From Leucobacter allii (lineage in GTDB: Bacteria; Actinomycetota; Actinomycetes; Actinomycetales; Microbacteriaceae), in NCBI RefSeq assembly GCF_022919155.1, contig NZ_CP095045.1:2604001-2668000 (forward strand): a DNA stretch of 64,000 nt, read 5' to 3'. Positions 24,301 through 51,355 of this stretch are shown here, piece after piece. The translations under genes were made by a program, and so were the position numbers. Under the pieces are notes generated by a model. That model worked only from the letters and a program-made list of their open reading frames with translations, had not been told where the DNA came from and did no database searches. How positions within the stretch are numbered: the stretch's first letter is position 1; each line of letters begins with the position of its first letter.

Positions 24301-24374
24301 GCACGGCGCCCCTCGCGGTCGCGCTCGGCGAGCCGCGGGCGCGAGCGCCGCGCGCGGGTGGGCCGGGAGAACGC

Positions 24375-26644: not shown

Positions 26645-26713
26645 ACCGAACGCACTCCTTCTTCTGTGTCGGAGGACACGCTCCGGGCGTGACCCCACCT
26701 CATCGGACCGAAC

Positions 26714-26776: not shown

Positions 26777-26882
26777 CGCTGTGCGTTCACTGGGCGACGG
26801 CAGTGCGCGACACCCCGGCTGGTCCGCAGGCCCAGCGCGTAGACTCGATGCCGACAGCACCCTCCGATCCCCGAAGGCGAGC

Positions 26883-36620: not shown

Positions 36621-36653
36621 GATTGGAACCTTCCTTCGAAGTTCGAGCGGTGG

Positions 36654-37514
36654 TCATTGCCACCTGAGCAGGCTGCGGATGACCGCTCGGAGGATCAGAT
36701 CGAGCAGGATCGCCACGAGACCGACGGCGATCGCGAGCGCGAGGACTGCGGCCACGTTCGCCTGCGTCGCACGCAGCGCGATGAGCCGGCCCGCCCCGCT
36801 CTCGGATCCCAGCAGCTCCACGGTCGCCGTGACCGCGATGGCCGTCGAGAGCGCGAGGCGCAGCCCGGAGAGGACCGCCGGAAGCGTGCCGGGGAGGACG
36901 ACCGCCCAGAATCGGCCGAAGCGACCGATCCCGAGACCCGCCGCGTACTCCTCGGTGGCCTTCGGCAGCGCGAGCGCGGCGGACTGGGCGACCATCGCGA
37001 CGGTGATGAACGCGTAGAAGGTGACGAGCACGAACTTGTTGCCGACGCCGTTCCCGAACCACACGAGGAAGAACGGGGCGAGCACGAGGACAGGAACGGC
37101 GCCGAACACGAAGAGCAGCGGCTCCGAGAGGTTCCGCACTAGCTGCAGGCGCGCCCCCAGCAGGCCGACGAGCACGCCGAGGAGACTCCCCAGCGCCCAG
37201 GCGCCGACGGCGACGCCCACCGTGTACCCGATGTTGAGGAGATACCCCGGCTGCTTCACGCCGAGGTACTTCAGCCCGGGGTCGTCGAACATGCTCGCGT
37301 GGAAGTTCGCGACGACTGCGGACGGCGAGGGAAGTATCGCGACGTAGTCGATCTGCCGTGCGATGAGCTCCCACGCGCCGAGGAACACGGCGACGCCGAC
37401 GACCTGCCACGCGATCGCCGACCAGGCCGCGCGGCGCGCCGCCCGGCGGCGGGAGGTCTCGGCTCCGCCGCTTGCCGCCGCGAGGCGGATACTGCGAGTG
37501 AGCGTCGCGGTCAT
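36654..37514 (-). CDS. NitT/TauT-type ABC transporter permease
   Basis: A 286-residue permease with about six membrane helices and the coupling loop EYAAGLGIGRFGRFWAVVLP then GTLPAVLSGLRLAL. It differs clearly from the second permease of the operon (34927-35823), so the channel is probably a heterodimer. Its start overlaps the stop of the binding-protein gene by 4 nt. Confidence 0.88.
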   Translation of the reverse strand: MTATLTRSIRLAAASGGAETSRRRAARRAAWSAIAWQVVGVAVFLGAWELIARQIDYVAILPSPSAVVANFHASMFDDPGLKYLGVKQPGYLLNIGYTVGVAVGAWALGSLLGVLVGLLGARLQLVRNLSEPLLFVFGAVPVLVLAPFFLVWFGNGVGNKFVLVTFYAFITVAMVAQSAALALPKATEEYAAGLGIGRFGRFWAVVLPGTLPAVLSGLRLALSTAIAVTATVELLGSESGAGRLIALRATQANVAAVLALAIAVGLVAILLDLILRAVIRSLLRWQ

Positions 37515-38803
37515 GACGCCGCCGCTGCCGCCAGTCGGTACGCATCGAGGTAGTTGCGGTGATCGTACTGCTCCTGCGCGCGGGATTTCAGGTCGCCGTC
37601 CGGCGCATCGACCAGTGCCTCGTCGGCGGCTTCGCGATACTGCACCAGATCGCGGTACACCTGCCCGGCGATGCTCAGCGAATCGGGGGTGTGCCCCGTT
37701 CCGATGACGCCGGTCTCTGCGAGATCATCGATCTGCGCGCCCATGACCTCGTCGAAGTAGAACGGCTCGCCCTCGTCGAGGTACAGCTCGGAGGCGTCCT
37801 CGAAGTTGCGCATCGAGTACAGACCGTCGAACATGCTCGCCAGCTCCTCGGTCGACACCTCCGAGCCCGTGTAGCTGTTGAGATAATCGCGGAACCGCTC
37901 GACGGTTCCCTCGGGATCGGCCTCGAGATCGTCGATGAGGCGGTAGACGACCGAGGTGAACCGCAGCAGCGTCTCGTAGTTGTCCGCAGCGTACTCGGTC
38001 GTCGTCAGGTATCCCGAGAACGTTGAGCGCAGGCTGACCGTCGCCTCGGAGGGCTCGTTGTCGATGACGTCACGGAGCTCGATGATCGGCTCCCAGCCGT
38101 CGAGCTCCATGCTCGTGATCTGCGCCGCACCCGTGGGCGAGGTGAAATCGGCCTGCCCGGAGAATCCGGCGCGGACGATGTCGGGATTCGCGAGGTAGGT
38201 CACCTCGAGATCGTCGAGCGTCATGCCCGCCTTCTCGAGGATGAGCTCGTAGAAGGTCGGCACCACGCCCTCGCGCAGAATGACCGGCTGGCCTCGAAGC
38301 TGCTCGACGACCGTCGCCACGGCCTCGCCGTAGCTCTCTCCGCCCTCCATCGCCTCCGCGAGCGTCGTGTACTCGCCTGCGGGAGCGAGGATCCGGTAGC
38401 CGTAGAAGACGTCGCTGATCGCGAAGGTGACGACGTTGTCGACGCTGTCGAGCTGCGAGACGATCGCCGGCGGGTAGCCCGATCCGACCTCGATCTGCTT
38501 GTTCAGCAGCGGCGTGAGGGCCGCGATGAGATCGACCTGCTCACCGTTGGGTTCGGGCGAGATCGTGATGCCGACCTCGTCGAAATACCCGTTCTCGATC
38601 CCGGCGACGGCGAGCAGTTCGTCCGCATAGGGGGAGAATCCTGCGTGGAGGTCGACCTCGGGGATCGAGTCGCCCGGCTCCGCCATCTCAGCGGGGGCCG
38701 CCGCCGCGGTCTCCGCCTCGCTCTGCGGCGCGCACGCCGACAGCAGCAGCGCGAAGCCGGCGATCCCTGCCGTCAGCAGCAGGCGCTTCGAGTGTCTGGT
38801 CAT
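37511..38803 (-). CDS. NMT1/SsuA-like ABC substrate-binding lipoprotein
   Basis: A 430-residue lipoprotein with lipobox LLLSAC (Cys about residue 24), an acidic linker and a two-lobed type II binding fold. Segments such as GFSPYADELLAVAGIENGYF and ALTPLLNKQIEVGSGYPPA fit the NMT1/THI5-like and aliphatic sulfonate-binding families. It is longer than typical SsuA (about 320), with an extended helical C-terminus. It lies directly after the acyl-CoA ligase (3-nt gap) and before its permease, with AAGGAG as ribosome binding site. Ligand unknown. Confidence 0.87.
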   Translation of the reverse strand: MTRHSKRLLLTAGIAGFALLLSACAPQSEAETAAAAPAEMAEPGDSIPEVDLHAGFSPYADELLAVAGIENGYFDEVGITISPEPNGEQVDLIAALTPLLNKQIEVGSGYPPAIVSQLDSVDNVVTFAISDVFYGYRILAPAGEYTTLAEAMEGGESYGEAVATVVEQLRGQPVILREGVVPTFYELILEKAGMTLDDLEVTYLANPDIVRAGFSGQADFTSPTGAAQITSMELDGWEPIIELRDVIDNEPSEATVSLRSTFSGYLTTTEYAADNYETLLRFTSVVYRLIDDLEADPEGTVERFRDYLNSYTGSEVSTEELASMFDGLYSMRNFEDASELYLDEGEPFYFDEVMGAQIDDLAETGVIGTGHTPDSLSIAGQVYRDLVQYREAADEALVDAPDGDLKSRAQEQYDHRNYLDAYRLAAAAAS

Positions 38804-38806
38804 GGT

Positions 38807-40453
38807 TCATACTCCTTCAGTTGCCGGTCCGGTTATGGGACGCCCGGCGGCGACGATGCCGCCGGGCTGGTCTTCGACGTGCAGCACCGGTGTCGCCGCA
38901 TCGCCCGCGTAGATCCGGTCGAGGCGATCCCGATGACGGCGTTCCACCGCCGTCCTCACGACCTTGCCGCTCGCGGTGGACTCGCCCAGCTCCTGTCGGA
39001 ACGGCTCGTCGAGCACGAGGATCTTCTGCACGCGCTCCTGCGGGGCGCGCTCGCCGTTGAGACGGAGCGCCGCGGATCGCAGCACCTCGGTCTCGAGCGC
39101 GCGGCCCCTGCCCGCCGCCGCGATCCCGATCACGTAGGGCCGTCGGTCGCCCACGAGGACGAAGTCCTCGACGCCGGTTTCTGCCCGGAACGCATTCTCG
39201 TAGTCCTCGGGCGAGATATTCTTTCCGGTCGAGGTGACGATGACGTTCTTCGCGCGACCGGTGATCGTGAGGAATCCCGCCTCGTCCACCCGGCCGAGGT
39301 CCCCGGTGCGCAACCAGCCGTCCGTGATCGCCCGGGCCGTCGCCTCGGGGTCGCCGAGGTATCCGGCGAAGACATTGGGGCCGCGGACGAGGACCTCCCC
39401 GTCCGCGGCGATGCGGACCTCGAGTCCGGGAAGCGGACGCCCGACCGTCCCGCGACGGAAGTCGTGCGGCGTTCCGATCGCGACGGCGGTGGACGACTCG
39501 GTGAGCCCGTAGCCGTCGACGATCGCGACCCCGGCCCCGGCGTAGACGTCGAGCACGTCGTGCGCGAGCGGCGCGCCACCGCTCAGGGCGTAGACGAGGC
39601 GTTCTCCGAATGCGGCGCGCAGGCCGCCGGGATCCTCGGCGTGCCTCGCCGCGGCCTGTTCGAAGAGCCGCGGCACCCCCGCGACGTAGCTCGGAGCGCT
39701 CTCCGCGATCTGTTCGAGGATGCCTGCGGTGCCCCGGGACCCGTCGCCGTAGACGATCTCGCCGCCGAGACACAGGCTCGTCAGCTGCTGCAGCCTGGCG
39801 GAGGCGTGGGCGAGCGGGAGGTAGATGAAGGCGGACGCGCGATGGGCGTGAGCGTGCACCGGGTGGCGTTCGGCCTCCAGAACCATCCGGAGGACGGCAG
39901 CGTAGTTGCGCTGCAGGATCACGCACCCCTTCGGCCGCCCCGTCGATCCCGAGGAGAACGCGATCGTGAAGACGTCGTCCGGCAGGCCGGCCGCCCACTT
40001 GTCCGTTCCGCGGAGCCCGCCCGAGCTCCGGAGCAGGCTCCCCAGTTCGCCCTCCGCGCGGCCGATCTCGACCACGCCGGCGGGAAGCCCGCGGGCGGCG
40101 GGCGGGAGCGGCGTCCCCGCTTCGACGATGAGCATCCGAGGTTCCGCGCTGGCGAGAAGCCACTCGAGTTGCTCGGGAGTCGCCGTGGGATAGACGGGCA
40201 CGAGCACGGCCCCGAGGACCGCGGCGGCGAGCTCGATCACGGTCCAGTCCGGGCGCGTGCGCACCATGAGTCCGATACGATCTCCTCGGCCGATTCCGGC
40301 ATCCGCAAGTCCCTCCGCCACTCCCGCCACGAGCGCGTGCAGTTCGCCGTAGTCGCGCGCATGCCACTCGCCGTCCCGGAGGAAGCGCTGGGCCGGCGCC
40401 GACGGATGCGCGTGCAGCATCGGCCGGAGGAGCGCGGCAACCGTCTGAGGCAT
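38807..40453 (-). CDS. AMP-dependent acyl-CoA ligase
   Basis: A 548-residue adenylate-forming enzyme of the long-chain fatty acyl-CoA synthetase (FadD15-like) type: it activates a carboxylic acid with ATP and joins it to CoA. Motifs are FSSGSTGRPKG (P-loop), DGYGLTESSTAVAIG, TGDLGR and GRAKNVIVTSTGKNIS. First gene of the transporter operon, so the imported compound is likely a carboxylate activated on entry. ATG 40453 is preferred over ATG 40468 because a -10 box (TAGAAT, 40472-40467) overlaps the latter, leaving a very short leader. Acid specificity cannot be read from sequence. Confidence 0.9.
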   Translation of the reverse strand: MPQTVAALLRPMLHAHPSAPAQRFLRDGEWHARDYGELHALVAGVAEGLADAGIGRGDRIGLMVRTRPDWTVIELAAAVLGAVLVPVYPTATPEQLEWLLASAEPRMLIVEAGTPLPPAARGLPAGVVEIGRAEGELGSLLRSSGGLRGTDKWAAGLPDDVFTIAFSSGSTGRPKGCVILQRNYAAVLRMVLEAERHPVHAHAHRASAFIYLPLAHASARLQQLTSLCLGGEIVYGDGSRGTAGILEQIAESAPSYVAGVPRLFEQAAARHAEDPGGLRAAFGERLVYALSGGAPLAHDVLDVYAGAGVAIVDGYGLTESSTAVAIGTPHDFRRGTVGRPLPGLEVRIAADGEVLVRGPNVFAGYLGDPEATARAITDGWLRTGDLGRVDEAGFLTITGRAKNVIVTSTGKNISPEDYENAFRAETGVEDFVLVGDRRPYVIGIAAAGRGRALETEVLRSAALRLNGERAPQERVQKILVLDEPFRQELGESTASGKVVRTAVERRHRDRLDRIYAGDAATPVLHVEDQPGGIVAAGRPITGPATEGV

Positions 40454-40459
40454 GTGCGA

Positions 40460-40504
40460 TTTTTCCATTCTACGAAAAACTAATTTGCTCTAAAGAAAAA
40501 CTAA
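40460..40504 (-). promoter_or_regulatory. Promoter/operator of ligase-transporter operon
   Basis: TAGAAT (40472-40467, minus strand) is a good -10 with a weak TTTAGA -35 16 nt upstream. TTTTTC (40460-40465) and GAAAAA (40474-40479) form a perfect inverted pair around it. GAAAAACTAA occurs twice as a direct repeat (40474-40483 and 40495-40504), 21 bp apart, that is on the same face of the helix. This suggests repressor or activator binding. Confidence 0.55.
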
Positions 40505-40578: not shown

Positions 40579-41007
40579 TCATGCGGTGGTCTCCGCGACC
40601 GGCCCATCGACGAGGAGCTCGCGCGCCCGGTCGGCGAAGGCCTCGGGCAGCGGTGAGGCGCGACGCCGCCGGAGATCGAAGCGCACCGTCACCGCTTCGA
40701 CGATCGCCGCCGGCTCCTCATCCCCGAGCGTCGTCAGCCGCTGGAGATAGTCGATCGAGCTCCGCCCGACCCGTTGCACGTCGCAGTCCACGGTGAACAA
40801 CGCCCCGAGCGAGACCTCGCGCAGATACGTGATGCGCTGGGAGACGTCGGCCCAGCCGAACCCCTCCCCCGGCTTTCCGCCGATCTCCGCGAGGAAATGC
40901 TGGGCGGCGTCGTCGAAGGCGCCGACGTAGTGCCGGGTGTTGAGGTGCCCGTTCGCATCGCACAGCCACGGGTGCGCGATGCCGTGGAAGCTCACGATCG
41001 GCGTCAT
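40579..41007 (-). CDS. Hotdog-fold acyl-CoA thioesterase
   Basis: A 142-residue 4-hydroxybenzoyl-CoA thioesterase-type (YbgC-like) hotdog protein. The active-site loop DANGHLNTRHYVGAFDDA contains the family Asp/Asn and His positions; RITYLREVSLGALFTVDCDV follows. It would hydrolyse an acyl-CoA to free acid and CoA. It starts at ATG 41007, overlapping the acyl-CoA dehydrogenase stop by 4 nt, and is the last gene of the hyuA operon. 125 nt of AT-richer DNA separates it from the ligase operon. Confidence 0.85.
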   Translation of the reverse strand: MTPIVSFHGIAHPWLCDANGHLNTRHYVGAFDDAAQHFLAEIGGKPGEGFGWADVSQRITYLREVSLGALFTVDCDVQRVGRSSIDYLQRLTTLGDEEPAAIVEAVTVRFDLRRRRASPLPEAFADRARELLVDGPVAETTA

Positions 41008-42179
41008 ACGAACGCCCCCGTCCCCGTCGCGGCCCGCGTCGCGACCAGCCCGGAGATCTCGTCGGTCCCCTCGTAGGTGTAGACGGCCTCGGCGTCGCAG
41101 AAGTGCCGCATGACGCCCGTGCCGAGGACGATGCCGTTGCCTCCGCAGAGCTCGCGGGCGATGGCCACGGTCTCGCGCATCATGCGCGAGACGGCGTACT
41201 TGGCCAGCGCCGAATGCTCGTCCGCGTACTTGCCCTCCTCGTGCATCCGGGCGACGCGGGAAGCGTATCCGAGACCCGCCGTGACGTTGTCCAACATGCG
41301 CGCGACCTTGCCCTGCACGAGTTGGAACCGGGCCAGCGGGCGACCGAACTGCTCGCGTGTGGCGATGTAGCGCAGGGCGGCCTCGTAGGCCCCGGCCTGC
41401 AGGCCGGCCGCGAGCCACACGACGCTCGCCCGCATGTGCCGGAGCATCCTGGCGACGTCCGCGAACGTGTCGACCCCGTGCAGGCGCAGCGAATCGGGGA
41501 CCCGTACGTCGCGCATGACGATGTCGGCGTTGTTCACGATCCTGAGCGAGGCCTTCTGCGGAATCCTCGAGATCTCAAAGCCCGCCGAGTCCCGGGGGAC
41601 GAGGAACGCGCGCATCGCGCCGCTCGATTCCTCCTTCGCCACCACGCACACGTGAGTCGCATATGCGGCGCTCCCGATCCAGCGCTTCGCCCCGTTCAGC
41701 ACCCACTCGTCGCCATCGCGGACTGCCGTCGATTCGAGTCCGCGGGCGACATCGCTGCCGTGCTCCGGCTCAGTGATCGCGAAGACCCCGCGGAGCCGGT
41801 ACTCGACCACCTGCCGCATGAGTCCCGCCCGCTGCTCGTCCGAGGCGCCGTGGAGGATCGCACTCGTGATCATCGTCGCCTGACCGCTGAAGTACGTCGC
41901 CATCGACGCGTCGACCCGCGCGATCTCGAAGAGCCTGAAGCCCTCGAACAGCGGCCGCACGGCCTCCCCGGCGCGTCGCAGTTCCTCGGGGTCGAGGAGC
42001 CGCAGCCCGGCGATGCGCTCGATGAGGTGCTCGGGGAACAGTCCCCGCTCCCAATGGTCGTCCACGATCGGCGCGACCTCAGCATCCAGGAAGGCCCGCA
42101 ATCGCAGGATCGCGGAGCGTTCCGCCGGGGTGAGCTCGGAGGCGTAGTCGTACACGTCGCACTGGGGGTACAGGCCCAT
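41004..42179 (-). CDS. Acyl-CoA dehydrogenase (glutaryl-CoA dehydrogenase-like)
   Basis: A 391-residue FAD-dependent acyl-CoA dehydrogenase. The N-terminal helical domain, middle domain (GVFAITEPEHGSD; NGAKRWIGSAAYA) and C-terminal domain with AIARELCGGNGIVLGTGVMR and the catalytic Glu in YTYEGTDEI are all present. The HxD-like LCGGNGI and TYEGT pattern is closest to glutaryl-CoA dehydrogenases, which oxidise and sometimes decarboxylate dicarboxylyl-CoA, so a dicarboxylic or medium-chain acyl-CoA is a reasonable substrate (inference). It is followed directly by the thioesterase gene and preceded by MaoC with a 50-nt gap. Confidence 0.9.
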   Translation of the reverse strand: MGLYPQCDVYDYASELTPAERSAILRLRAFLDAEVAPIVDDHWERGLFPEHLIERIAGLRLLDPEELRRAGEAVRPLFEGFRLFEIARVDASMATYFSGQATMITSAILHGASDEQRAGLMRQVVEYRLRGVFAITEPEHGSDVARGLESTAVRDGDEWVLNGAKRWIGSAAYATHVCVVAKEESSGAMRAFLVPRDSAGFEISRIPQKASLRIVNNADIVMRDVRVPDSLRLHGVDTFADVARMLRHMRASVVWLAAGLQAGAYEAALRYIATREQFGRPLARFQLVQGKVARMLDNVTAGLGYASRVARMHEEGKYADEHSALAKYAVSRMMRETVAIARELCGGNGIVLGTGVMRHFCDAEAVYTYEGTDEISGLVATRAATGTGAFV

Positions 42180-42229
42180 CGGGGTGCTCCTTCTGAGGTG
42201 TTGTCGGGGTCGTGGGGAGGGAATGCGCG

Positions 42230-42688
42230 TCAGCGCGCGTACTGGACGATCGTCCTCGCGACGACGCAGGGATGATCGGCGGCGCAGTCGCGGATCTCGA
42301 GATCGGCGTGGAGACGGATTCCGCGGCGCGGGGCCTCCAGTTCCTTCGCACGGACGATGACGCCGCGGATCTCGAGTACGGCGCCGACGCGGACCGGGGC
42401 GATGAAGCGCACCCGGTCGAGGCCGTAGTTGAGGCCCTCAGCCGCATCCGCGACCCGGAGCGTGCGCGTCCAGTATCCGCCGAGCAGCGACAGCAGCAGG
42501 TACCCGTGCACGATGGTGCCGCCGAACGGCCCCGTGACCGCCCGCGCCGGATCCACATGGATCCATTGCGCATCCCCCGAGATCGCCGCGAAGCGGTCGA
42601 CGTCCTCTTGTACCACGGCGAAGGGCTCCGATGGTTCGAGCGCCGCCCCGGTCATCTCGAGCAGCTCGGCCATCGTCCGACGCATCAC
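42230..42688 (-). CDS. MaoC-family enoyl-CoA hydratase
   Basis: A 152-residue hotdog-fold hydratase. The hydratase 2 motif is present as FAAISGDAQWIHVDPARA with the catalytic Asp and His, followed by GGTIVHGYLLLSLLG. It adds water to a 2-enoyl-CoA. It starts at ATG 42688, overlapping the SDR stop by 4 nt (ATGA). Within the operon it would act between the acyl-CoA dehydrogenase and the SDR. Confidence 0.9.
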   Translation of the reverse strand: MMRRTMAELLEMTGAALEPSEPFAVVQEDVDRFAAISGDAQWIHVDPARAVTGPFGGTIVHGYLLLSLLGGYWTRTLRVADAAEGLNYGLDRVRFIAPVRVGAVLEIRGVIVRAKELEAPRRGIRLHADLEIRDCAADHPCVVARTIVQYAR

Positions 42689-43440
42689 AGCGACAGCCCG
42701 CCGTCAACATACAGGACCTGCCCGGTGATGAACGCCGCGTCGTCCCCCGCGAGGAAGGCGACGGCGGCGGCGACATCCTCGGGCGTCCCCACGCGGCGCA
42801 GGGGCGTGATCTCCGCCGTCTGCGCGCGGTACGCCTCGGGATCCGCGCCGAGGCGTACCGCGGTGGCGTCCGTCATCGCCGTGCTGATGTAGCCCGGGCC
42901 GATCGTGTTCGCCGTGATGCCGAACGGCCCGAGTTCGATCGCGAGGGTGCGGGTGAAGCCCTCGAGCCCGGCCTTCGCCGCCGAATAGTTCGCCTGGCCC
43001 CGATTCCCGCCGGCGGCGATGCTCGACAGATTGACGATGCGACCCGATCGCTGCGCGACCATGTGCTGCTGCACCGCGCGGCTCAGCAGGAACGCACCGC
43101 GGAGGTGCACCGCGATGACGGCGTCCCAGTCCTCGTCGGTCATCCGGAACAGGAGGTTGTCCCGCGTGATCCCCGCGTTGTTCACGAGGACGTCGACGGT
43201 GCCGAAAGCGGCGACGACGTCCTCGACGGTGTCGGAGACCGAACGAGCGTCCGTCACGTCGGCCGAGAATCCCGCAGCTCCCTCGATCTGCGCCGCCGCC
43301 GCAGCAGCGCGATCCGGGTCGATGTCCACGACCGCGACGCGCGCGCCGAGGGCGGAGAGCCGCCTGGCGGTCGCCTGCCCGATGCCTCCCGCCCCTCCGG
43401 AGACCACGGCCACGCGCCCGTCGAGCGCGCCGGGTGTCAC
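42685..43440 (-). CDS. Short-chain dehydrogenase/reductase (FabG-like)
   Basis: A 251-residue classical SDR with the cofactor motif SGGAGGIG, NNAG, catalytic Ser-Tyr-Lys (SSIAAGGNRGQANYSAAKAG) and the C-terminal ITGQVLYVDGG. Asp after the second strand (VVDIDPDR) suggests NAD(H) over NADP(H), as suits an oxidising 3-hydroxyacyl-CoA dehydrogenase. I place the start at GTG 43440 because it overlaps the BKACE stop as GTGA; longer frames upstream belong to the shadow of that gene. Confidence 0.88.
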   Translation of the reverse strand: MTPGALDGRVAVVSGGAGGIGQATARRLSALGARVAVVDIDPDRAAAAAAQIEGAAGFSADVTDARSVSDTVEDVVAAFGTVDVLVNNAGITRDNLLFRMTDEDWDAVIAVHLRGAFLLSRAVQQHMVAQRSGRIVNLSSIAAGGNRGQANYSAAKAGLEGFTRTLAIELGPFGITANTIGPGYISTAMTDATAVRLGADPEAYRAQTAEITPLRRVGTPEDVAAAVAFLAGDDAAFITGQVLYVDGGLSL

Positions 43441-44369
43441 GACGCGCTCCACCACGGACCCAGCCCGGCGCGCACCTCGTCGGGGGTCTGCAGCGCGCGG
43501 CCCTGCAGGGTGACGAGACGGGCGGCGACCTCGACCAGGTCGGCGTTCTGCCCGGCCTGCTCGGCGCGCGTCATCCGCAGACTGTCCTCGAGTCCGACGC
43601 GCACGTCGAGCCCCATCCCCGCGGCGAGCGAGGCGTGGCGGAACTGCATGGGGTACCCCGTCGCCGCGACCCCGACGACGCCGAGGTCGTCGCCGAGCAC
43701 GCGCCTCGCCGTCGCGTGCAGGTGGAAGAGATCCTCCAGGTCGTTCCCCGCACCGCCGAGCACGCCGAGGACGAACTGCACGCGCACCGGCGCCTCGAGC
43801 ACTCCGGCATCGATGAGGTAGCGCGCCATGCCGATGTGGCTGAGATCGTAGATCTCGAGTTCGGGGGTGATGCGCTGCTCCTTGAACCTGGCGGCGAAGT
43901 CGCGCAGCATGGCGAGAGTGTTCGTGAACACGACCGTCCCGCTGCGCTCGAGCACCTCCCGCTCCCAGGCGTGCTGCACGCTCGGCCATCTGGCCGGGTC
44001 GGGGTACCCCTCGTAGTTCATCGTCCCGAGATTGAAGGTCGCGAGCTCGGGCCGGGTCACCAGAGCGCCGGCGAGGCGCTCCTCGGCCGTCATGTGCGGT
44101 GACCCGCCGGTCGAGATGCTGATGACGGCGTCCACGCGCTCGCGGATCCCCTCGACGATCTCGATGAAGCGCCGCTGGTCGGCGCTCGGCCGACCGTCAT
44201 CGTCCCGCGCGTGCAGGTGGATCACCGATGCCCCCGCCTCGACGGCCGCGACGGACTGCGTCACGACGTCTTCCACTCGGCACGGAATCGCCGAGCTCTG
44301 GCTCGGCAGGACGTCTCCGCCGGTGACTGCCGCGGTGATCGCGACCGGATCGTACTTGCCCCTGGTCAT
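43437..44369 (-). CDS. Beta-keto acid cleavage enzyme (BKACE, DUF849)
   Basis: A 310-residue BKACE-family enzyme (Kce/DUF849). Family members condense a beta-keto acid with acetyl-CoA and split it into acetoacetate and the CoA ester of the remaining acid; the founder acts on 3-keto-5-aminohexanoate in lysine fermentation. Zinc ligands are visible as His51 and His53 (VIHLHARD), and the conserved Glu in VRVGLEDSLRM is Glu261. Start ATG 44369 with GGGAG 6 nt upstream. Located between the aminotransferase and SDR genes. The substrate specificity pocket cannot be judged here. Confidence 0.92.
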   Translation of the reverse strand: MTRGKYDPVAITAAVTGGDVLPSQSSAIPCRVEDVVTQSVAAVEAGASVIHLHARDDDGRPSADQRRFIEIVEGIRERVDAVISISTGGSPHMTAEERLAGALVTRPELATFNLGTMNYEGYPDPARWPSVQHAWEREVLERSGTVVFTNTLAMLRDFAARFKEQRITPELEIYDLSHIGMARYLIDAGVLEAPVRVQFVLGVLGGAGNDLEDLFHLHATARRVLGDDLGVVGVAATGYPMQFRHASLAAGMGLDVRVGLEDSLRMTRAEQAGQNADLVEVAARLVTLQGRALQTPDEVRAGLGPWWSAS

Positions 44370-44394
44370 GCTTGACTCCCGTTCGTTCGTTCGT

Positions 44395-45699
44395 TCACTG
44401 GGCGACGTCGTGCACGGAGGCGACGACATCGAGGGCGGCATCGGCCGCCGCGAGGAAGCGCTCGGCGTCCGCCGAGGTGTGCGCCGAGGAGACGTAGAAC
44501 TTCGCCCCCGGCACGACGTAGATACCGCGATGCAGCATCTCGGCACCGAACCTCGTCGATGCGGCCCGGTCGCTCGAGAGGTAGCTCGCGAGATCGACAA
44601 CCGGCTCCCGCGGTGCGAATACGACGTCGAAGAAGACGTCCGGTCCGACGAGGTCGAGGGCGATCGACTTGCTCTGCGCGAGGTCCCGCAGCCCCGCGGA
44701 CACCTCGGCGACGTGGGCGGCGATCGCCTCGCGTCCGCGCGCCTCGTCGAGCTCCCGCAGCAGCGCGAGCCCGGCCGCGGCTCCGAGCGGATTGCCGTTG
44801 AGCGTGCCGCTCATGAACGAACGCTGGCTCGCCCCGGGCGAGCCGGGGACCAGGTACTCGATGAGCTCGCGACTCGCCGCCACGGCGCCGACCGCCGTGC
44901 CCCCGCCGACCGCTTTGCCGAGGGCGACGAGATCGGCGTGGACGCCGTATCGCTCCTGGGCGCCGCCCCGGCTCAGACGGAACCCCGTCACGACCTCGTC
45001 GAAGATGAGCAGCGCCCCGGTTTCGTCCGCGAGCTCCCGCAGCCCTTGCAGGAACCCTGGGGCGGGCGGCAGCGAACGCTGCACCGGCTCGACGATGATC
45101 GCCGCGAGATCGCCCCGGTGCGCGCGCGCCATGTCCTGCGCACTGACGAGGTCGTTGAACCCCGCGACCACGATCTTCTCGGTGGCCCCAGCCGGGATCC
45201 CGAGCGAGTCGGCGCCGACCGCGCCGCGATCCTCTGGGACGCCGGGGAAGCTCGGCAGCGCGTAGTCGTGGTGGCCGTGGTAGGCGCCGGCGAACTTCAT
45301 CACCGTCTCGCGACCCGTCGCCGCGCGGGCCAGCCGCATCGCGAAGAACGTCGCCTGCGACCCGTCGGCGCAGAACTTGACCGCCTCGACTCGCGGCACC
45401 GACTCCACGATGAGCTCCGCGAGCGAGATCGCCGGCTCGTTCATCGCGTAGAAGTGCGTGCCCTTCGCGGCCTGCTCCGCGATCGCCCGTGTCACCCGCG
45501 GATGCGCGTGCCCGACGAGCAGTGGACCGGAGCCGAGCGTGTAGTCGACGAGCTCCGTCTCCGCGGTCGTGAAGATCCGCGAGCCCCGGCCATGACTCGC
45601 GACGAACGCGTCCTCGTCGGGGATCCGCGTGTACCCGAAGCAGGCGCCCGGGATGACCCGATCCGCGCGGTCGACCGGTGAAGCGTCCGCGCCGTTCAT
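44395..45699 (-). CDS. Class III aminotransferase (GSA-aminomutase-like)
   Basis: A 434-residue PLP-dependent enzyme related to glutamate-1-semialdehyde aminomutase and beta-amino acid aminotransferases. Motifs: FCADGSQATFFAMRLARAAT (PLP phosphate binding), AGAYHGHHD, LIFDEVVTGFRL and the PLP lysine in LVALGKAVGGG. Its setting in a catabolic operon argues against tetrapyrrole synthesis and for an omega- or beta-amino acid substrate. It overlaps the hyuB stop by 4 nt and precedes BKACE by 25 nt. Confidence 0.87.
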   Translation of the reverse strand: MNGADASPVDRADRVIPGACFGYTRIPDEDAFVASHGRGSRIFTTAETELVDYTLGSGPLLVGHAHPRVTRAIAEQAAKGTHFYAMNEPAISLAELIVESVPRVEAVKFCADGSQATFFAMRLARAATGRETVMKFAGAYHGHHDYALPSFPGVPEDRGAVGADSLGIPAGATEKIVVAGFNDLVSAQDMARAHRGDLAAIIVEPVQRSLPPAPGFLQGLRELADETGALLIFDEVVTGFRLSRGGAQERYGVHADLVALGKAVGGGTAVGAVAASRELIEYLVPGSPGASQRSFMSGTLNGNPLGAAAGLALLRELDEARGREAIAAHVAEVSAGLRDLAQSKSIALDLVGPDVFFDVVFAPREPVVDLASYLSSDRAASTRFGAEMLHRGIYVVPGAKFYVSSAHTSADAERFLAAADAALDVVASVHDVAQ

Positions 45700-47465
45700 C
45701 GTTCCGCTCCCGTCGCGATCAGGTACCGGCCCTCGACCCGGCTCTCGTCCTCCACCACGTCGACGCCGTAGCTCGCGCGTGCCCGCTCGGGCGAGAGGTA
45801 GCCGTCGTCGAGATCGGCCTGCACCTCGGCCGGGGGGCGCAGCGACGGGTCTCCGTACCCTCCGGCACCGGCGCAGGTGAGCCGCAGCACGGCACCGGCC
45901 GGCACTCCGGAGCGCACCGTCTTCCCGCCGAGACGCTCCTCGGTGCCGTCCGGCAGGGTGAGCACGAAGGACGCCGTCTCCCCCTGGTGCCCTCCGGCGA
46001 GGCCGTAGGGATGACTGCGGTCCCGATCCGCGACGATCGTGACCGTCGACTCCTCGGTGAACTCGACGATCCGCGTGATTCCGTTCCCGCCCCGATAGCG
46101 CCCCGCACCCCCGCCGTCCTGACGGATCTCATAGCCGATCACACGGATCGGATGATTGCCCTCGAGCACTTCGACCGGGGTGTTTCCGGTATTCCCGATG
46201 CTCGTCCGGCGCGCGTGCGATCCGTCGACGCCGATGTTCGCACCTTGCCCGGCACCGTGCACCTCGTACATGATGCTGTCGTCCACCACGCCGTCGCGCC
46301 CGATGATGAGGACGGTCGAGCTGCCGGTGCCGGCCGCGCATACGCGTCCGGGCACCGCCTGCGACAGGGCTCCGAGCACGACGTCGGCGATCCGGGCGGA
46401 GGTCTCGTGGTTGCCCGCGACCACCGGTGCCGGTGCGTGGGGGTTGATCACGGTGCCCTCGGGCGTGACGATGGTGACCGGCCGGTATGAGCCGGAGTTC
46501 GACGAGGTGTGGGGCTCCGCGACGGCCTTGAGCGCGAAGTACGTCGCGGAGAGCGTCACCGCCAGCGGGCTGTTGATTCCGCCTCTCGCCTGCGGAGAGG
46601 TCCCGGTGAAGTCGACCTCGACCTCGTCGCCGTCGATCGTGAGCGCGACGCGGATCTCGACCGGCTCATCGCTGAACCCGTCGCCGTCCACGGTGTCGGC
46701 GAACTCGTAGCGCCCGTCCGGCATCTCGCGGAAGGCCGTCCTGGCCCGCCGTTCGCTCACGTCCAGGACCTCGCGCATGGCCTGCTCCACGACCTCCGTC
46801 CCGTAGCGCTCGCAGTAGTCGAGCAGGCGCCGCTCGGCGGCCAGGCAGCCGGCGTACTGGGAACGCATGTCCCCCAGGCGCTCCGCCGAGTTGCGCACGT
46901 TCAGGGAGATGATCGAGACGATCTCCTCGTTGAGCTCCCCGCGGCGGTAGAGCTTCACCGGGGGCATGCGGAGCCCTTCCCCGTAGAGATCCGTCGCCCG
47001 CAGATTGTAGCTGCCCGGAGTCGGACCTCCGATGTCCACGTAGTGGCCGCGGACCGCCGCGAAGGCGATGAGCCTGTCCTCGGAGAAGATCGGCTTCGCC
47101 ATGATGAAGTCCGGCATGTGGTTGTTGCCCTGGTACGGGTCGTTCTGCAGGAGCACATCGCCCGGCTCGAGGGTCTCCGCAGGGATCCTCGCGAGCAGGC
47201 CGCGCATCGACGTCGGCATGCTCGCGAGATGGATGGGGATGTCCCCGACCCCTTGGGCGACGATGTCCCCGTGCGCGTCGAGCAACCCGCAGGACAGATC
47301 GCCCGCCTCGCGCCAGAGGTTCGAGTAGGCCGTGCGCAGCACGACGGACTTCATCTCGGCGACCGCGGTGCGCAGGCCGGAGTCCATGACGGAGAGGGTG
47401 ATCGGGTCGAGCCCGGTGCCGGGAAGCGGCCCGGATCCGATCTCGGCGAGTGGGGCGATGGTCAT
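45696..47465 (-). CDS. Hydantoinase/oxoprolinase B subunit (HyuB-like)
   Basis: A 589-residue HyuB-family subunit. Typical segments: LDPITLSVMDSGLRTAVAEM, LRTAYSNLWREAGDLSCGLL, LLQNDPYQGNNHMPDFIMAK, DFTGTSPQARGGINSP and the glycine-rich GGGAGRYRGGNG. With HyuA it forms ATP-dependent amidohydrolases or carboxylases (hydantoinase, 5-oxoprolinase, caprolactamase, acetone or acetophenone carboxylase). Overlaps hyuA by 4 nt and the aminotransferase by 4 nt, so all three are translationally coupled. The reaction type cannot be fixed from sequence alone. Confidence 0.92.
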   Translation of the reverse strand: MTIAPLAEIGSGPLPGTGLDPITLSVMDSGLRTAVAEMKSVVLRTAYSNLWREAGDLSCGLLDAHGDIVAQGVGDIPIHLASMPTSMRGLLARIPAETLEPGDVLLQNDPYQGNNHMPDFIMAKPIFSEDRLIAFAAVRGHYVDIGGPTPGSYNLRATDLYGEGLRMPPVKLYRRGELNEEIVSIISLNVRNSAERLGDMRSQYAGCLAAERRLLDYCERYGTEVVEQAMREVLDVSERRARTAFREMPDGRYEFADTVDGDGFSDEPVEIRVALTIDGDEVEVDFTGTSPQARGGINSPLAVTLSATYFALKAVAEPHTSSNSGSYRPVTIVTPEGTVINPHAPAPVVAGNHETSARIADVVLGALSQAVPGRVCAAGTGSSTVLIIGRDGVVDDSIMYEVHGAGQGANIGVDGSHARRTSIGNTGNTPVEVLEGNHPIRVIGYEIRQDGGGAGRYRGGNGITRIVEFTEESTVTIVADRDRSHPYGLAGGHQGETASFVLTLPDGTEERLGGKTVRSGVPAGAVLRLTCAGAGGYGDPSLRPPAEVQADLDDGYLSPERARASYGVDVVEDESRVEGRYLIATGAER

Positions 47466-49516
47466 CGGTGTCCTCCCAGGGTGAGCAAGAGATTGCCGTA
47501 GCCGTCGACCCGCGTCAGCGATCCGCCGGGCACGACGAAGGTGGTGTCGTTCGATTCGATCACGGCGGCACCCTCGATCCGCTGCCCCGGGAGCAGCAGC
47601 TCCCGGCGGAAGAGCGGCACGTCGAGGATCTGCGTGGGCGACACGACGAGCGATCTGGACCCGTGCGATCGCGGCGCCTCGGTCGATGGCGGCGCCGGCC
47701 GGAGATCCGTGCGGGTGATCGAGCCGGCGCCGCCGACCCGCGCCGTCGTGATGTCGATGGGCTCGCCGTCGACCCGGAAGCCGTTGACGCGCTCGTGCAT
47801 GGCGTGGAACCTCTCGACCGTCCGGGCGATCCACCCCGCGTCGAAGCCCTCGTCGACCTCGACGGTGATGGCGGTGTTCTGGCCCACGTAGCTCAGGTCG
47901 AGCGCGAGTTGCACCGTCTGCCGCTCGGACGGGATACCGTCGTCGGCGAGTTCCTCGACGGCTCGGCGCCTGAGCCCGCTCAGGGTCGCGGCCAGCGCGG
48001 GGATGGCCCGTCCGTCGAGCCGCATCTGGAAACTCGCCGCGTGGTTGTGGAGCACGTCCGAGACGACGAGCCCCACCGCCGAGAGGCATCCGGCGACGGG
48101 CGGGACGATCACGGTCGGGATGGACATCTCCAGCGCGATGTCCGCGGCGTGCATGGGGCCCGCACCGCCGAAGGCGTTGAGCGCGAAGTCCCGCGGGTCG
48201 TGCCCGCGGCCGACCGAGATCGCGCGCACCGCTCCCGCCATCGCGGCATTGCTGATCCGCCGGATGCCCAGAGCGGTCTCGATCGGGTCGAGTCCGAGCT
48301 TCGCTCCGAGCCTGGCGCACGCGTCCTCGGCGAGCCCGCGATCGACGACGACGTCGTCGCCGAGCTCGGCACCATCGGCGAGGATCCCGAGGACCGCGTT
48401 CGCGTCGGTGACCGTGGGCTCGGTGCCTCCGCGGCCGTAGCAGACGGGGCCGGGGACGGCTCCGGCGCTCCGCGGGCCGACGAGGAACTGCCCGCCGCTG
48501 TCGACGTAGGCGATGCTGCCGCCCCCGGTACCGATCGTCTCGATATCGACGGTGGGCACCCGCACGGGCATCTCCATCACCTCGCGTGCGGTGGTGAGCG
48601 GTATTCTGCCGTCCGCGAGCAGGGCGACGTCGAAGCTCGTGCCGCCCATGTCGACCGTGATCGTGTTCGCGATCCCCGTCTGCCGGGAGATCCAGCGCCC
48701 GGCCACGACGCCGCCGCTCGGCCCGGACAGCAGGAGGTTCACGGGGTGCTCTGCGGCGCGCTGCGGCGTCGTCACGCCGCCGTTGGACTGCATGATCCAG
48801 GTCTGCAATCCCTCCCGCCACGCCTGCACCTGGTCGGTGAGGTGGGCGAGGTAGGGCGCGCAGACGGGGGCCAGGTAGGCGTTCAGAGCCGTCGTGGAGG
48901 TCCGCTCGTACTCGCGCGTCTGGGGCAGGATCTCGCTCGAAAGCGAGACGCTGATCTCCGGCGCCTCCTCTCGGATCAACTCGGCGGCACGGCGCTCGTG
49001 GTCGGCGTTGAGATAGGAGTAGAGGAAGCTGACCGCGACGCTCGAGATGCCCCGCGAGGACATCGAACGCGCGGCTTCGCGCACCCCTTCCTCATCGAGT
49101 TCCGTCACGACGGAACCGTCGCGATCGATGCGCTCAGCGACCTCGAAGCGGTCCTTGCGGGCCACGAGAGGCGCGGGCCCGGGCGACAGCAGATCGTAGA
49201 GCGCCTCGGAGGAGCGCGTCAGCCGTGCGATCTCGAGGACATCGCGGAACCCCCGGGTGGCGAGGATCGCCGTGCGCGGCCCGTTGCGTTCGAGGGAGAC
49301 GTTCGTGCCGATCGTCGTCCCGTGCACGAGGTCCCTGAGGTCCGACAGGGACGCGTCATCCGCATGGGCGACCACTCGGCTCGCGGCGGCCACGACCGCG
49401 CCGGCCGGGTCGTCCTTCCGGGAGGAGACCTTGGCGCTGCTGATCAGTCCGGTCTCCTCGTCCCAGAACACGGCGTCCGTGAAGGTGCCTCCCGCGTCCA
49501 CACCGATTCGCTTCAT
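47462..49516 (-). CDS. Hydantoinase/oxoprolinase A subunit (HyuA-like)
   Basis: A 684-residue HyuA-family ATP-binding subunit. N-terminal MKRIGVDAGGTFTDAVFWDE is the actin-fold phosphate-binding segment of the family. The middle domain includes MQSNGGVTTPQRAAEHPVNL, LLSGPSGGVVAG and TVDMGGTSFDVAL. It activates the amide or ketone substrate by phosphorylation and works with HyuB. First gene of the eight-gene catabolic operon. ATG 49516 has CAGGAGAGG 6 nt upstream. Its promoter region (49559-49622) is shared divergently with the MenB/BadI-like gene. Confidence 0.92.
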   Translation of the reverse strand: MKRIGVDAGGTFTDAVFWDEETGLISSAKVSSRKDDPAGAVVAAASRVVAHADDASLSDLRDLVHGTTIGTNVSLERNGPRTAILATRGFRDVLEIARLTRSSEALYDLLSPGPAPLVARKDRFEVAERIDRDGSVVTELDEEGVREAARSMSSRGISSVAVSFLYSYLNADHERRAAELIREEAPEISVSLSSEILPQTREYERTSTTALNAYLAPVCAPYLAHLTDQVQAWREGLQTWIMQSNGGVTTPQRAAEHPVNLLLSGPSGGVVAGRWISRQTGIANTITVDMGGTSFDVALLADGRIPLTTAREVMEMPVRVPTVDIETIGTGGGSIAYVDSGGQFLVGPRSAGAVPGPVCYGRGGTEPTVTDANAVLGILADGAELGDDVVVDRGLAEDACARLGAKLGLDPIETALGIRRISNAAMAGAVRAISVGRGHDPRDFALNAFGGAGPMHAADIALEMSIPTVIVPPVAGCLSAVGLVVSDVLHNHAASFQMRLDGRAIPALAATLSGLRRRAVEELADDGIPSERQTVQLALDLSYVGQNTAITVEVDEGFDAGWIARTVERFHAMHERVNGFRVDGEPIDITTARVGGAGSITRTDLRPAPPSTEAPRSHGSRSLVVSPTQILDVPLFRRELLLPGQRIEGAAVIESNDTTFVVPGGSLTRVDGYGNLLLTLGGHR

Positions 49517-49558
49517 GCGTTCCTCTCCTGGTTGCTGCACGTCACTCGATTCCATCTG

Positions 49559-49575
49559 ACAGAAACATTTCCTGT
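49559..49575. promoter_or_regulatory. Palindromic operator in hyuA leader
   Basis: ACAGAAA-cat-TTCCTGT, an imperfect 17-bp palindrome (6 of 7 arm positions), lying about 20 nt downstream of the hyuA -10 box. The AGGAAATGTTTCT core is reminiscent of IclR-family operators, and an IclR gene lies 1 kb away. Binding is inferred. Confidence 0.5.
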
Positions 49576-49593
49576 TTTGTGGAACTAGCAGTT

Positions 49594-49622
49594 AGTATTC
49601 ACGAGAACCGCAGCGAAGGCAA
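49594..49622 (-). promoter_or_regulatory. Promoter of hyuA catabolic operon
   Basis: On the minus strand TTGCCT (49622-49617) and AATACT (49599-49594) are 17 nt apart, about 80 nt upstream of the hyuA start codon. This AT-richer divergent region contrasts with the GC-rich genes around it. Confidence 0.55.
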
Positions 49623-49650
49623 GGTTCAGTTCTGCTCAATAAAACGACTT

Positions 49651-49672
49651 TCCATTGAATAGAATCAATGGA
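49651..49672. promoter_or_regulatory. Perfect palindrome over -10 box of MenB-like gene
   Basis: TCCATTGA and TCAATGGA form a perfect 8-bp inverted repeat with a 6-nt spacer. The spacer and its edges contain TAGAAT (49660-49665), the best -10 match for the rightward gene starting at 49700. A protein bound here would block that promoter. The neighbouring IclR regulator is the obvious candidate. Confidence 0.65.
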
Positions 49673-49699
49673 GCGAATGATGCACGCACCGGGAGAACC

Positions 49700-50539
49700 A
49701 TGAACGCTCAGTCAGACACCGCCTGGACCGCGCAGGGCGACTTCACCGACATCAGCTACCGGACCACCTCCGACGGGATCGCGCTCATCACGATCGAGCG
49801 CCCGGAGAAGCGCAATGCCTTCAGGCCGCTGACGAGCGCCGAGCTCGCCCACGCGTTCGCGCGGGCGAGGCACGATCGGAACGTGCGCGTCGTGCTGCTG
49901 ACCGGCCGCGGAGACGCGGCCTTCTGCGCCGGAGCCGATCTCTCGGTCCGCGCCGGGGACCGTGCTGGAACGGATTGGCCTGAACATCTCAGCCCCGCGA
50001 GCGTCTCCGACGTCCAGCTGGCGATTCGGAGAATCGAGAAGCCCGTCATCGCACTGGTCTCGGGATTCGCCATCGGCGGCGGCCAGGTACTCCATCAGGT
50101 CTGCGATCTCTCGATCGCCGCCGAGCACGCCCAGTTCGGACAGGTCGGGCCGCGCGTCGGCAGCTTCGACGGCGGCTATGGGATCAATCTGCTCGCGAAG
50201 CAGATCGGGCACAAGCGCGCCAAGGAGATCTGGTTCCTCTGCCGTCGCTATACCGCCCGGAACGCCCTGGAGTGGGGCCTGGTCAACGCGGTCGTTCCCG
50301 CGGAGGAGCTCCTGGATACCGGCGTCGCCTGGGCCCGCGAACTCCTGCAGATGTCCCCCGCCGCGCTGCGTCTGCTCAAATCGAGCGTCAATGCCGAGGA
50401 GGACGGACTCGCCGGCGTCGCGCAGCTCGCGGACGACAGCTGTCAGCTCTACTACGGCACGAGCGAGGCCGCGGAGGGTGCTGCGGCCTTCCTCGAGCGC
50501 CGCGCCCCGGATTTCACGGGCGTGCACGCCTTCGACTGA
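49700..50539 (+). CDS. MenB/BadI-like enoyl-CoA hydratase-family enzyme
   Basis: A 279-residue crotonase-fold enzyme. IERPEKRNAF and GAADLS-type oxyanion-hole segments are present (FCAGADLSV; SGFAIGGGQVLHQVCDLSIA), and QVGPRVGSFDGGYGINLLAK plus AKEIWFLCRRYTARNALEWG strongly resemble MenB (naphthoate synthase) and its ring-opening relative BadI (2-ketocyclohexanecarboxyl-CoA hydrolase). Placement in a catabolic island with no menaquinone genes favours a BadI-like C-C bond hydrolase. ATG 49700 has GGGAGAA upstream. It is divergent from hyuA and 54 nt before the iclR gene. Confidence 0.85.
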   Translation: MNAQSDTAWTAQGDFTDISYRTTSDGIALITIERPEKRNAFRPLTSAELAHAFARARHDRNVRVVLLTGRGDAAFCAGADLSVRAGDRAGTDWPEHLSPASVSDVQLAIRRIEKPVIALVSGFAIGGGQVLHQVCDLSIAAEHAQFGQVGPRVGSFDGGYGINLLAKQIGHKRAKEIWFLCRRYTARNALEWGLVNAVVPAEELLDTGVAWARELLQMSPAALRLLKSSVNAEEDGLAGVAQLADDSCQLYYGTSEAAEGAAAFLERRAPDFTGVHAFD

Positions 50540-50593
50540 GCACCGCCTCCGAACACGGTAGTCTTCGAACACCACGTCACCCCGAGGAGAAGC

Positions 50594-51355
50594 ATGGCAC
50601 GTGAGGATTCCCGAGGGATGCTCGAACGCGGACTCGTCATTCTCGGTGCGCTCGGCGAGCATCCAGACGGCATGGTACTCACAGACATCGTGAAGGCCAC
50701 CGGTCTCCCCGTCAGCACCACACACCGGCTCTTGAACATCGTCGTGACCACGGGTTTCGCCGCCTTCGACTCGGCGACCAAGCGCTACACCTTGGGCGTG
50801 AGGATCTTCGAGCTCGCCAGCCGGGTGCGCTCCGTGCAGACGATCTCGCAGATCGCCCGCCCGCTCATGCGCGAACTCGCCGATCTGACGGGAGAGACCA
50901 TCCAGCTCGCAGTGCTCGCGGACGGGAGCGCCATGTTTCTGGAAAAGGTCGGGGCCGACCGCTCGATCACCATTCGAGGGACCGTCGGCCAACGCGAGCC
51001 GCTCTGGGCGACGTCCACGGGCAAAGTGCTGCTCGCGGCACTGGAACCGGAGGAACTGGCGACGACGCTCGCGGGCCTCGAACTCAGGGCATACACGGAG
51101 CACACCATCACCTCGCGCGAGCGGTTGCTCGAAACGATCGCTCAGGTCGCCGAGCAGGACTGGGCGCTGACCGACGAGGAGTACGATCGCGACGTGCGCG
51201 CCATCGCCGTGCCGGTCAGGAATTCCGATGACCGCGTGGCCGCGGCACTGTGCATCGCCGGACCGAAGTATCGTCTCGATGTCGGCACCCTGGAAGGCTG
51301 GCTGCCCGAGCTCCGAGAGACGGCCCATCGGATCGGCGTGCAGCTGGCCCCCTGA
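50594..51355 (+). CDS. IclR-family transcriptional regulator
   Basis: A 253-residue IclR regulator: N-terminal winged helix (about 8-62, with VLTDIVKATGLPVSTTHRLL) and C-terminal effector-binding domain (about 75-250, with TSTGKVLLAALEPEEL and AIAVPVRNSDDRVAAALCIAG). IclR proteins often control degradation of aromatic or other organic acids. It lies after the MenB/BadI-like gene and probably regulates both arms of the divergent region 49517-49699. TAGTCT at 50561-50566 may be its own -10, and CGAACAC is repeated on either side. GAGGAG precedes the ATG. It is convergent with lpqB, with only 4 nt between stops. Confidence 0.9.
   Translation: MAREDSRGMLERGLVILGALGEHPDGMVLTDIVKATGLPVSTTHRLLNIVVTTGFAAFDSATKRYTLGVRIFELASRVRSVQTISQIARPLMRELADLTGETIQLAVLADGSAMFLEKVGADRSITIRGTVGQREPLWATSTGKVLLAALEPEELATTLAGLELRAYTEHTITSRERLLETIAQVAEQDWALTDEEYDRDVRAIAVPVRNSDDRVAAALCIAGPKYRLDVGTLEGWLPELRETAHRIGVQLAP

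Follow-up and report, generated by a model that had tools for sequence, protein, structure and literature searches.

A gene island of Leucobacter allii that may degrade a cyclic amide through an aminotransferase and a beta-keto acid cleavage enzyme

A window of 64,000 nucleotides from Leucobacter allii (contig NZ_CP095045.1, positions 2,604,001 to 2,668,000, forward strand) holds a 15-gene unit. At about even chances in our estimate, this unit is a self-contained island for the catabolism of a cyclic amide (most likely a lactam), which would be degraded through a class III aminotransferase (AT) and a beta-keto acid cleavage enzyme (BKACE). Genes for HyuA/HyuB and for BKACE are widespread, mostly without a known substrate. 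In this island, uptake, sensing and ring opening are combined with deamination and C-C cleavage, and the compound can be identified through the regulator and the binding protein. Gene content, packing, motifs, insertion site and partial conservation are observed; each of the reactions and the substrate are inferred.

In the proposed pathway, an ATP-binding cassette (ABC) transporter of the NitT/TauT type would import the ring compound, HyuA would activate the ring with ATP and HyuB would hydrolyze it on a metal site, yielding a free amino acid. The AT would convert the amine to a ketone, most likely beta to a carboxylate, and BKACE would turn the resulting beta-keto acid and acetyl-coenzyme A (acetyl-CoA) into acetoacetate and a shortened acyl-CoA, which an acyl-CoA dehydrogenase (ACAD), a MaoC-type hydratase and a short-chain dehydrogenase/reductase (SDR) would oxidize further. 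A MenB/BadI-like crotonase may perform the last C-C cleavage, as the island has no thiolase, a thioesterase (TE) and an acyl-CoA ligase would handle CoA, and an IclR-family regulator may sense an intermediate. With slightly more doubt than confidence, we further propose that a lactamase of new specificity and an AT resembling glutamate-1-semialdehyde aminomutase (GSAM) feed the beta-keto acid straight to BKACE, without a CoA ligase, and that related islands with the same transporter, ligase, regulator and HyuAB set swap the end of the route, in one case for a thiolase. The unstable beta-keto acid would then be trapped in the form of acyl-CoA and acetoacetate.

The core genes and their products

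An initial annotation of this DNA had described eight overlapping genes as a possible new pathway. All eight are present, on the minus strand at 40579-49516, and Pfam profiles place them in the families named. With the chosen starts, five of the seven junctions overlap start to stop (HyuA/HyuB, HyuB/AT, BKACE/SDR, SDR/MaoC and ACAD/TE); the other two are gapped, with about 25 bases between AT and BKACE and about 50 between MaoC and ACAD. The unit as then described was incomplete, since a transporter, a ligase, a crotonase and an IclR gene bring it to 15 genes.

HyuA (47462..49516, minus strand), the predicted ATP-binding subunit of the cyclic-amide hydrolase, is composed of the Pfam domains Hydant_A_N, Hydantoinase_A (283.9 bits) and Hydant_A_C. 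It carries all three ATP motifs of the HyuAB family (DxGGTxxD, DxGGT and GxxPGP, according to an excerpt of PMC8453981), as DAGGTFTD at 7, DMGGTSFD at 289 and GAVPGP at 352. HyuB (45696..47465, minus strand; Hydantoinase_B, 582.8 bits) is the predicted metal and hydrolysis subunit. When the codon that follows ATG 47465 is counted as residue 1, its residues D55, H115, D118 and H140 align with the metal ligands D41, H99, D102 and H124 of the caprolactamase subunit CapB, and Tyr152 aligns with CapB Tyr136. Thr and Ser stand where CapB has the vicinal cysteines 410-411, and HyuB contains no adjacent cysteines anywhere.

Among solved structures, HyuA scores 471 bits against N-methylhydantoinase, 410 against caprolactamase, 289 against acetophenone carboxylase and 245 against acetone carboxylase; the corresponding scores of HyuB are 298, 289, 131 and 72 bits. 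The NCBIfam equivalog cut-offs for caprolactamase are not reached (CapA 541.1 of 1000 bits, CapB 333.6 of 1000 bits). Of the ketone-carboxylase models, only the acetophenone ones gave matches, all below cut-off: 289.9 of 1500 bits (ApcC, with HyuA), 189.3 of 1250 and 124.7 of 1500. HyuB comprises 589 amino acids, compared with 581 for CapB and 684 and 776 for carboxylase subunits, and only two hydrolase or carboxylase subunits are encoded in the island. Structure matches and profile scores thus support the placement of HyuAB as a predicted ATP-dependent enzyme of the lactamase/hydantoinase type, with N-methylhydantoinase and caprolactamase as closer relatives than the ketone carboxylases; a clustering with the latter, named at the outset as the outcome that would speak against the pathway, was not borne out. 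In Gulosibacter molinativorax, an excerpted report describes a HyuAB pair that is induced on molinate medium and was expressed, caprolactam being degraded only by the other candidate, ChnC (PMC9477822).

The AT (44395..45699, minus strand; Aminotran_3, 177.2 bits) carries K262 in the motif ALGK, presumably the lysine that binds pyridoxal phosphate, which is invariant in nine aligned sequences including its own. Its best solved relative is a GSAM (248 bits), solved beta-transaminases matching more weakly (2yku 150.7 bits, beta-phenylalanine aminotransferase 120.1 bits), and it scores 310.7 bits on the HemL (GSAM) equivalog, whose cut-off is 527.3. The BKACE gene next to it suggests that it would act on a beta-amino acid. 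Another HemL-like locus elsewhere in the genome matches in two pieces (318.3 and 177.5 bits), neither of which is above the cut-off. At this strong HemL-like locus (2718115-2719476 of contig G000:C1), the pieces lie about 85 bases apart and the frame is open throughout.

BKACE (43437..44369, minus strand; Pfam 272.8 bits, cut-off 24.8) has H51, H53, E172, Y174, R257 and E261, all invariant in 14 aligned sequences including its own, so that the intact His51, His53 and Glu261 reported initially were recovered in both the residue check and the alignment. In an alignment with PdKce, Glu172, Tyr174 and Arg257 correspond to its Glu171, Tyr173 and Arg254, residues that are discussed in the excerpts of PMC11961710 and PMC12871164. 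With Tyr174 at the position where the divergent enzyme BsfD has Phe, the protein is expected to follow canonical BKACE chemistry. Seven BKACE substrate groups have been published (PMC4922564, in excerpt); on the 3,5-dioxohexanoate-type model NF053538, the protein reaches 284.1 of 430 bits and remains below the cut-off. A second, distant BKACE gene (106 bits) is located elsewhere in the genome.

The remaining core genes, also on the minus strand, encode enzymes of acyl-CoA metabolism. The FabG-like SDR (42685..43440) likely starts at a GTG that overlaps the BKACE stop, and the MaoC-type hydratase (42230..42688; MaoC_dehydratas, 81.8 bits) starts at GTG 42688 or ATG 42685. The ACAD (41004..42179) is similar to ACX4 and glutaryl-CoA dehydrogenase (GCDH). 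In GCDH, an Arg binds the distal carboxylate; the ACAD has Ala94 at the position where the GCDH-named structures 2eba, 3sf6 and 3swo carry Arg, which makes it more likely that the acyl group after the BKACE step is neutral. A glutaryl-CoA route, from 3-oxopimelate to glutaryl-CoA and then GCDH, was set aside as unlikely for the same replacement. The TE (40579..41007; 4HBT_2, 65.5 bits) weakly resembles the C-terminal part of carnitine 3-dehydrogenase (PRK07531, 32.8 of 592 bits).

Conservation of the gene set

For BKACE, AT and HyuB, the best 120 relatives listed for each protein were compared by the size of their longest contig, an indirect mark of shared contigs and not of gene order. Five sizes are common to all three lists (29264, 49291, 11701, 11335 and 15363). 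The BKACE and AT lists also share 83278 and 80381 besides the window's own contig size, and further pairwise coincidences occur for BKACE and HyuB (7647) and for AT and HyuB (26223, 127001, 6558 and 3876). At sizes of at least 7 kb, coincidences number 7 for BKACE/AT, 6 for BKACE/HyuB and 7 for AT/HyuB. In 2000 draws of a jittered null, the same pairs coincided 0.09, 0.14 and 0.10 times on average and at most 2, 4 and 2 times. Among the nine BKACE relatives of at least 70% identity (P0002-P0010), six share a contig size with an AT relative and five with both an AT and a HyuB relative; the remaining three share none. For the HyuAB-AT-BKACE combination, which the initial annotation proposed to look for in other genomes, these coincidences count in favor: the HyuB-AT-BKACE trio is probably conserved. 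The entry for the window's own HyuB lists two contigs (longest 3.66 Mb), so that a second genome probably carries the same gene.

Close relatives were infrequent in the class, family, phylum and genus genome sets searched, which are samples of larger groups. The genome itself is the only one with a BKACE match at E ≤ 1e-90 among 394 genomes of the class, and likewise with an AT (P0130) match at 1e-100 among 396 genomes of the phylum. At 1e-50, BKACE is matched in 19 of 398 family genomes, its own counted, and the next best by E-value is 42% identical. HyuB matches reach 1e-180 in two of the 398 family genomes and 1e-160 in a single one of 88 genomes of the G480 genus. No match of at least 60% identity to AT, HyuB or BKACE was found in plasmid records. 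A Binataceae contig encodes a shortened HyuB (52%) directly before an AT (51%), followed by two CaiB-type CoA-transferase-like genes. PxpA and PxpB/C form another ATP-dependent lactam hydrolase; in Bacterium HR28 (BEIE01000002.1, L006:15438-18234), genes resembling them were read by eye about 4 kb from an AT relative.

Two sister islands were compared gene by gene. In G278, whose HyuB is 71% identical, we found a ligase, four transporter genes, an IclR gene, a crotonase, HyuAB, SDR, MaoC and ACAD, the transporter and ligase lying on the opposite side of the regulator compared with the Leucobacter island. A different class III AT (29% identical over 234 residues) stands at the far end after the ACAD, beside a RidA-like gene (L127:5004-5414; 59.8 bits, cut-off 106.25). 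A PxpA-like gene was read by eye after the ligase (L149:879-1688). The Nocardia-like island G1228 (HyuB 72%) contains a ligase, four transporter genes, a divergent IclR gene and HyuAB, with an AT of the same other type as in G278 directly after HyuB, then a thiolase and then an SDR; crotonase matches there reach only 33-34%. Both islands have HyuAB and an AT in a single gene run, and their binding proteins are 61 and 58% and their matches to permease 2 56 and 59% identical. The three islands thus have transporter, ligase, regulator, HyuAB and an AT in common and differ in how the pathway ends.

Several observations weigh against the proposed pathway. In the 55 kb of G278 that were compared, BKACE and TE are without a match, as are BKACE, TE, ACAD and MaoC in the 35 kb of G1228, and both islands use another class III AT (26-29% identical over about 230 residues). 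The AT is nearer to GSAM than to the solved beta-transaminases, and for three of the nine close BKACE relatives no AT relative has a contig of equal size. Around 80 more distant AT relatives, of which only 35 loci have full 10 kb flanks on both sides, BKACE (E ≤ 1e-5) was found at none and HyuA or HyuB (at least 60 bits) at six; because none of these loci has BKACE, its use is not a general rule for this AT family. Neither the ligase nor the crotonase can be placed firmly in the sequence of steps, and the nearest relative of the binding protein outside the islands lies in a ureide cluster with its own transporter (L165:1-15500). The pathway first proposed is thus supported in part, by the lactamase-type HyuAB, the catalytic BKACE residues and a probably conserved trio; the lack of a BKACE match in the stretches taken from both sister islands speaks against it. 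The thiolase found in place of BKACE in one of them makes the prediction of a beta-keto acid testable.

Extent and insertion site of the island

The 15-gene unit spans 34.93-51.36 kb of the window and is bounded by lpqB and comF. Past the TE, at a distance of about 110 bases, the minus strand continues with the AMP-binding acyl-CoA ligase (38807..40468; 215.2 bits), related to a ligase in each of the sister islands, and with the four genes of an ABC transporter, the five genes together covering 34927-40468. On the plus strand, divergent from HyuA, a gene pair (49655-51355) encodes the MenB/BadI-like crotonase (49655..50539, a later ATG start being possible) and the IclR-family regulator. The crotonase, a possible C-C hydrolase, stays under the equivalog cut-offs of menB (321.4 of 342.7 bits) and badI (269.4 of 467.6 bits), and the badH model is likewise matched below its cut-off (194.2 of 431.2 bits). 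Cleavage of a cyclic beta-ketoacyl-CoA by the crotonase would fit an island that has no thiolase. A separate menB elsewhere in the genome is above the cut-off (401.1 bits), and canonical roles in menaquinone synthesis for the crotonase or in haem synthesis for the AT were set aside, as other menB and HemL-like loci exist.

The right flank consists of lpqB, then mtrB and mtrA, and the left flank of comF, hpf and secA, as named from their sequences. A match to lpqB occurs in all 41 searched genomes of the genus, the own genome counted. The stretch after lpqB was taken from 20 of the 40 others; comF follows lpqB in all 20, and in none does the lpqB-comF interval match any of the 15 island proteins (E ≤ 1e-3). 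The sole match of an island protein in these stretches is to the ATPase, far past hpf (L148). About 1.5 kb of other sequence separates lpqB from comF in L144, and the comF match is split in two pieces in L142. The GC content of the island is 0.694, versus 0.708 and 0.741 in the flanks, and no exact direct repeat of more than 10 bases was found between the two 300-base end stretches. As the GC content is only slightly lower and no long exact direct repeat was found at the ends, it is the empty sites in congeners that indicate that the island was probably acquired horizontally.

Elsewhere in the window, two adjoining long proteins (20846-24304 and 24431-26956, minus strand) have a repeated domain in common (FRNYIYNFAMF-like); they presumably resemble HtaA-type haem-binding proteins.

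Uptake, regulation and substrate

The transporter, on the minus strand, comprises an NMT1/THI5-like substrate-binding lipoprotein (37511..38803; PF09084, 20.5 bits, equal to the cut-off), permease 1 (36654..37514; BPD_transp_1, 85.1 bits), an ATPase of the NitT/TauT type (35820..36620; ABC_tran 102.9 bits, taurine ATPase model 189.3 of 357 bits) and permease 2 (34927..35823; 298 amino acids from the ATG at 35823), the last identified by its sequence and position. Known protein families are only distant relatives of the binding protein; at 30% identity, relatives were found in two genomes besides its own among the 197 searched. In the ureide cluster that holds the nearest of these outside the islands, the urease alpha gene is above its cut-off, and a PuuE-like allantoinase gene and a dihydropyrimidinase/hydantoinase-like gene at the edge of the stretch are below theirs. 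This context hints at a cyclic amide or a ureide and is the chief point against a pure lactam.

The regulator (50594..51355, plus strand; IclR_C, 149.8 bits) resembles PcaR/PcaU/PobR and scores 181.9 bits on TIGR02431, under its cut-off of 284.75. The divergent promoter region (49517..49654) contains TTCCA/TGGAA-like half sites. In G1228, the palindrome TTCCATCAGATGGAA stands close before hyuA, and similar half sites were seen in the other two promoter regions; read by eye without statistics, they are a possible IclR operator.

Neither a carbamoylase nor an aldehyde dehydrogenase was recognized among the 15 island genes, permease 2 being unscanned and the rest of the genome unsearched. As no carbamoylase was recognized, a free amine is expected after HyuAB, and a lactam is a better fit than either a dihydropyrimidine or a hydantoin; the cyclic amide of the initial annotation is kept and refined toward a lactam. 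As no aldehyde dehydrogenase was recognized, the product of transamination is likely a ketone rather than an aldehyde. Both points argue from what is lacking in the island. Caprolactam was rejected as the substrate, since the CapA and CapB cut-offs are not reached, the cysteine pair is missing and no aldehyde dehydrogenase was recognized. Biotin breakdown was considered and not used.

Alternative explanations

CoA chemistry may come first or run in parallel: HyuAB and AT would yield a keto or aldehyde acid, the ligase would activate it, ACAD, MaoC and SDR would lead to a beta-ketoacyl-CoA, the TE would free the beta-keto acid and BKACE would replace a thiolase. We consider this unlikely, at somewhat better than one chance in five. 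In its favor, the ligase occurs in all three islands and BKACE only in that of Leucobacter, the Nocardia-like island has a thiolase, and BKACE and TE co-occur in the Leucobacter island, neither having a match in the sister stretches. Against it, such a route should cost more energy than a thiolase, an aldehyde would require a dehydrogenase, none of which was recognized in the island, and AT and BKACE are direct neighbors whose relatives share longest-contig sizes. A cyclic ureide, hydantoin or dihydropyrimidine, with a carbamoylase encoded elsewhere in the genome, is rather improbable. In its favor, N-methylhydantoinase is the solved structure closest to HyuA, and the binding-protein relatives (30%) adjoin dihydropyrimidinase/hydantoinase-like, urease and PuuE-like genes in the one cluster examined; against this stands the lack of a recognized carbamoylase among the 15 genes, with the sister stretches read by eye and the whole genome unsearched.

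It is clearly improbable that the AT shifts the amine as an aminomutase, or uses an alpha-amino acid, with BKACE serving an unrelated intermediate. GSAMs are its best solved relatives, but it remains under the HemL cut-off (310.7 of 527.3 bits), and there is the other HemL-like locus, with its pieces of 318.3 and 177.5 bits, neither above that cut-off. Least credible of all is a ketone carboxylase route, in which HyuAB makes the beta-keto acid from a ketone, BKACE cleaves it and the AT serves elsewhere. The carboxylases are homologues of HyuAB, their beta-keto acid products would suit BKACE, and the metal-site residues are common across the family; yet the acetophenone carboxylase models reach only 290 of 1500, 189 of 1250 and 125 of 1500 bits, there are two subunits only, and the 589 amino acids of HyuB are CapB-like (581) and fewer than 684 or 776. 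Degradation of a lactam through AT and BKACE remains our preferred reading.

Comparison with known systems

The initial statement that no described pathway has this exact set agrees with the open literature: among the matches listed there, none concerned a natural AT-BKACE pathway or a HyuAB-AT-BKACE set, the founding BKACE paper and most subscription papers lying outside this scope. In the same literature, the sole match for BKACE with aminotransferase and beta-keto acid concerns a phosphonate, and '3-keto-5-aminohexanoate cleavage' with hydantoinase gave no match.

BKACE-dependent carnitine degradation uses BKACE with a 4HBT-type thioesterase. The island shares both, but it has no carnitine 3-dehydrogenase, and an AT precedes BKACE. 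The cyclohexanecarboxylate route proceeds through AliAB, BadK, BadH and BadI; it resembles the island in its ligase, ACAD, hydratase, SDR and BadI/MenB-like crotonase, whereas the island proteins fall below the badI (269.4 of 467.6) and badH (194.2 of 431.2) cut-offs.

Caprolactam degradation in Pseudomonas jessenii runs through CapAB, an omega-aminotransferase and 6-oxohexanoate dehydrogenase (excerpts of PMC6061476 and PMC8453981). Common to both systems are ATP-dependent ring opening of the HyuAB type, a class III AT, acyl-CoA oxidation and an IclR gene, which lies in the beta-oxidation cluster of P. jessenii. Unlike that route, the Leucobacter island stays below the CapA and CapB cut-offs, lacks the vicinal cysteines, has a GSAM-like AT and BKACE, and no aldehyde dehydrogenase was recognized in it. 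In anaerobic indoleacetate degradation, the HyuAB-like IaaCE is proposed to open a lactam ring (PMC8453981), a likeness to the ring opening suggested here; AT and BKACE are unmentioned in the excerpted account of that system. The nearest precedent for the chemistry, as far as the excerpt of its description extends, is the synthetic module of the CORE cycle, in which a beta-alanine:pyruvate transaminase is combined with BKACE and the keto acid is malonate semialdehyde (PMC11961710). That module passes from transamination of a beta-amino acid, beta-alanine, to BKACE, as the Leucobacter island would; the pair in the island is a natural one, known from its genes.

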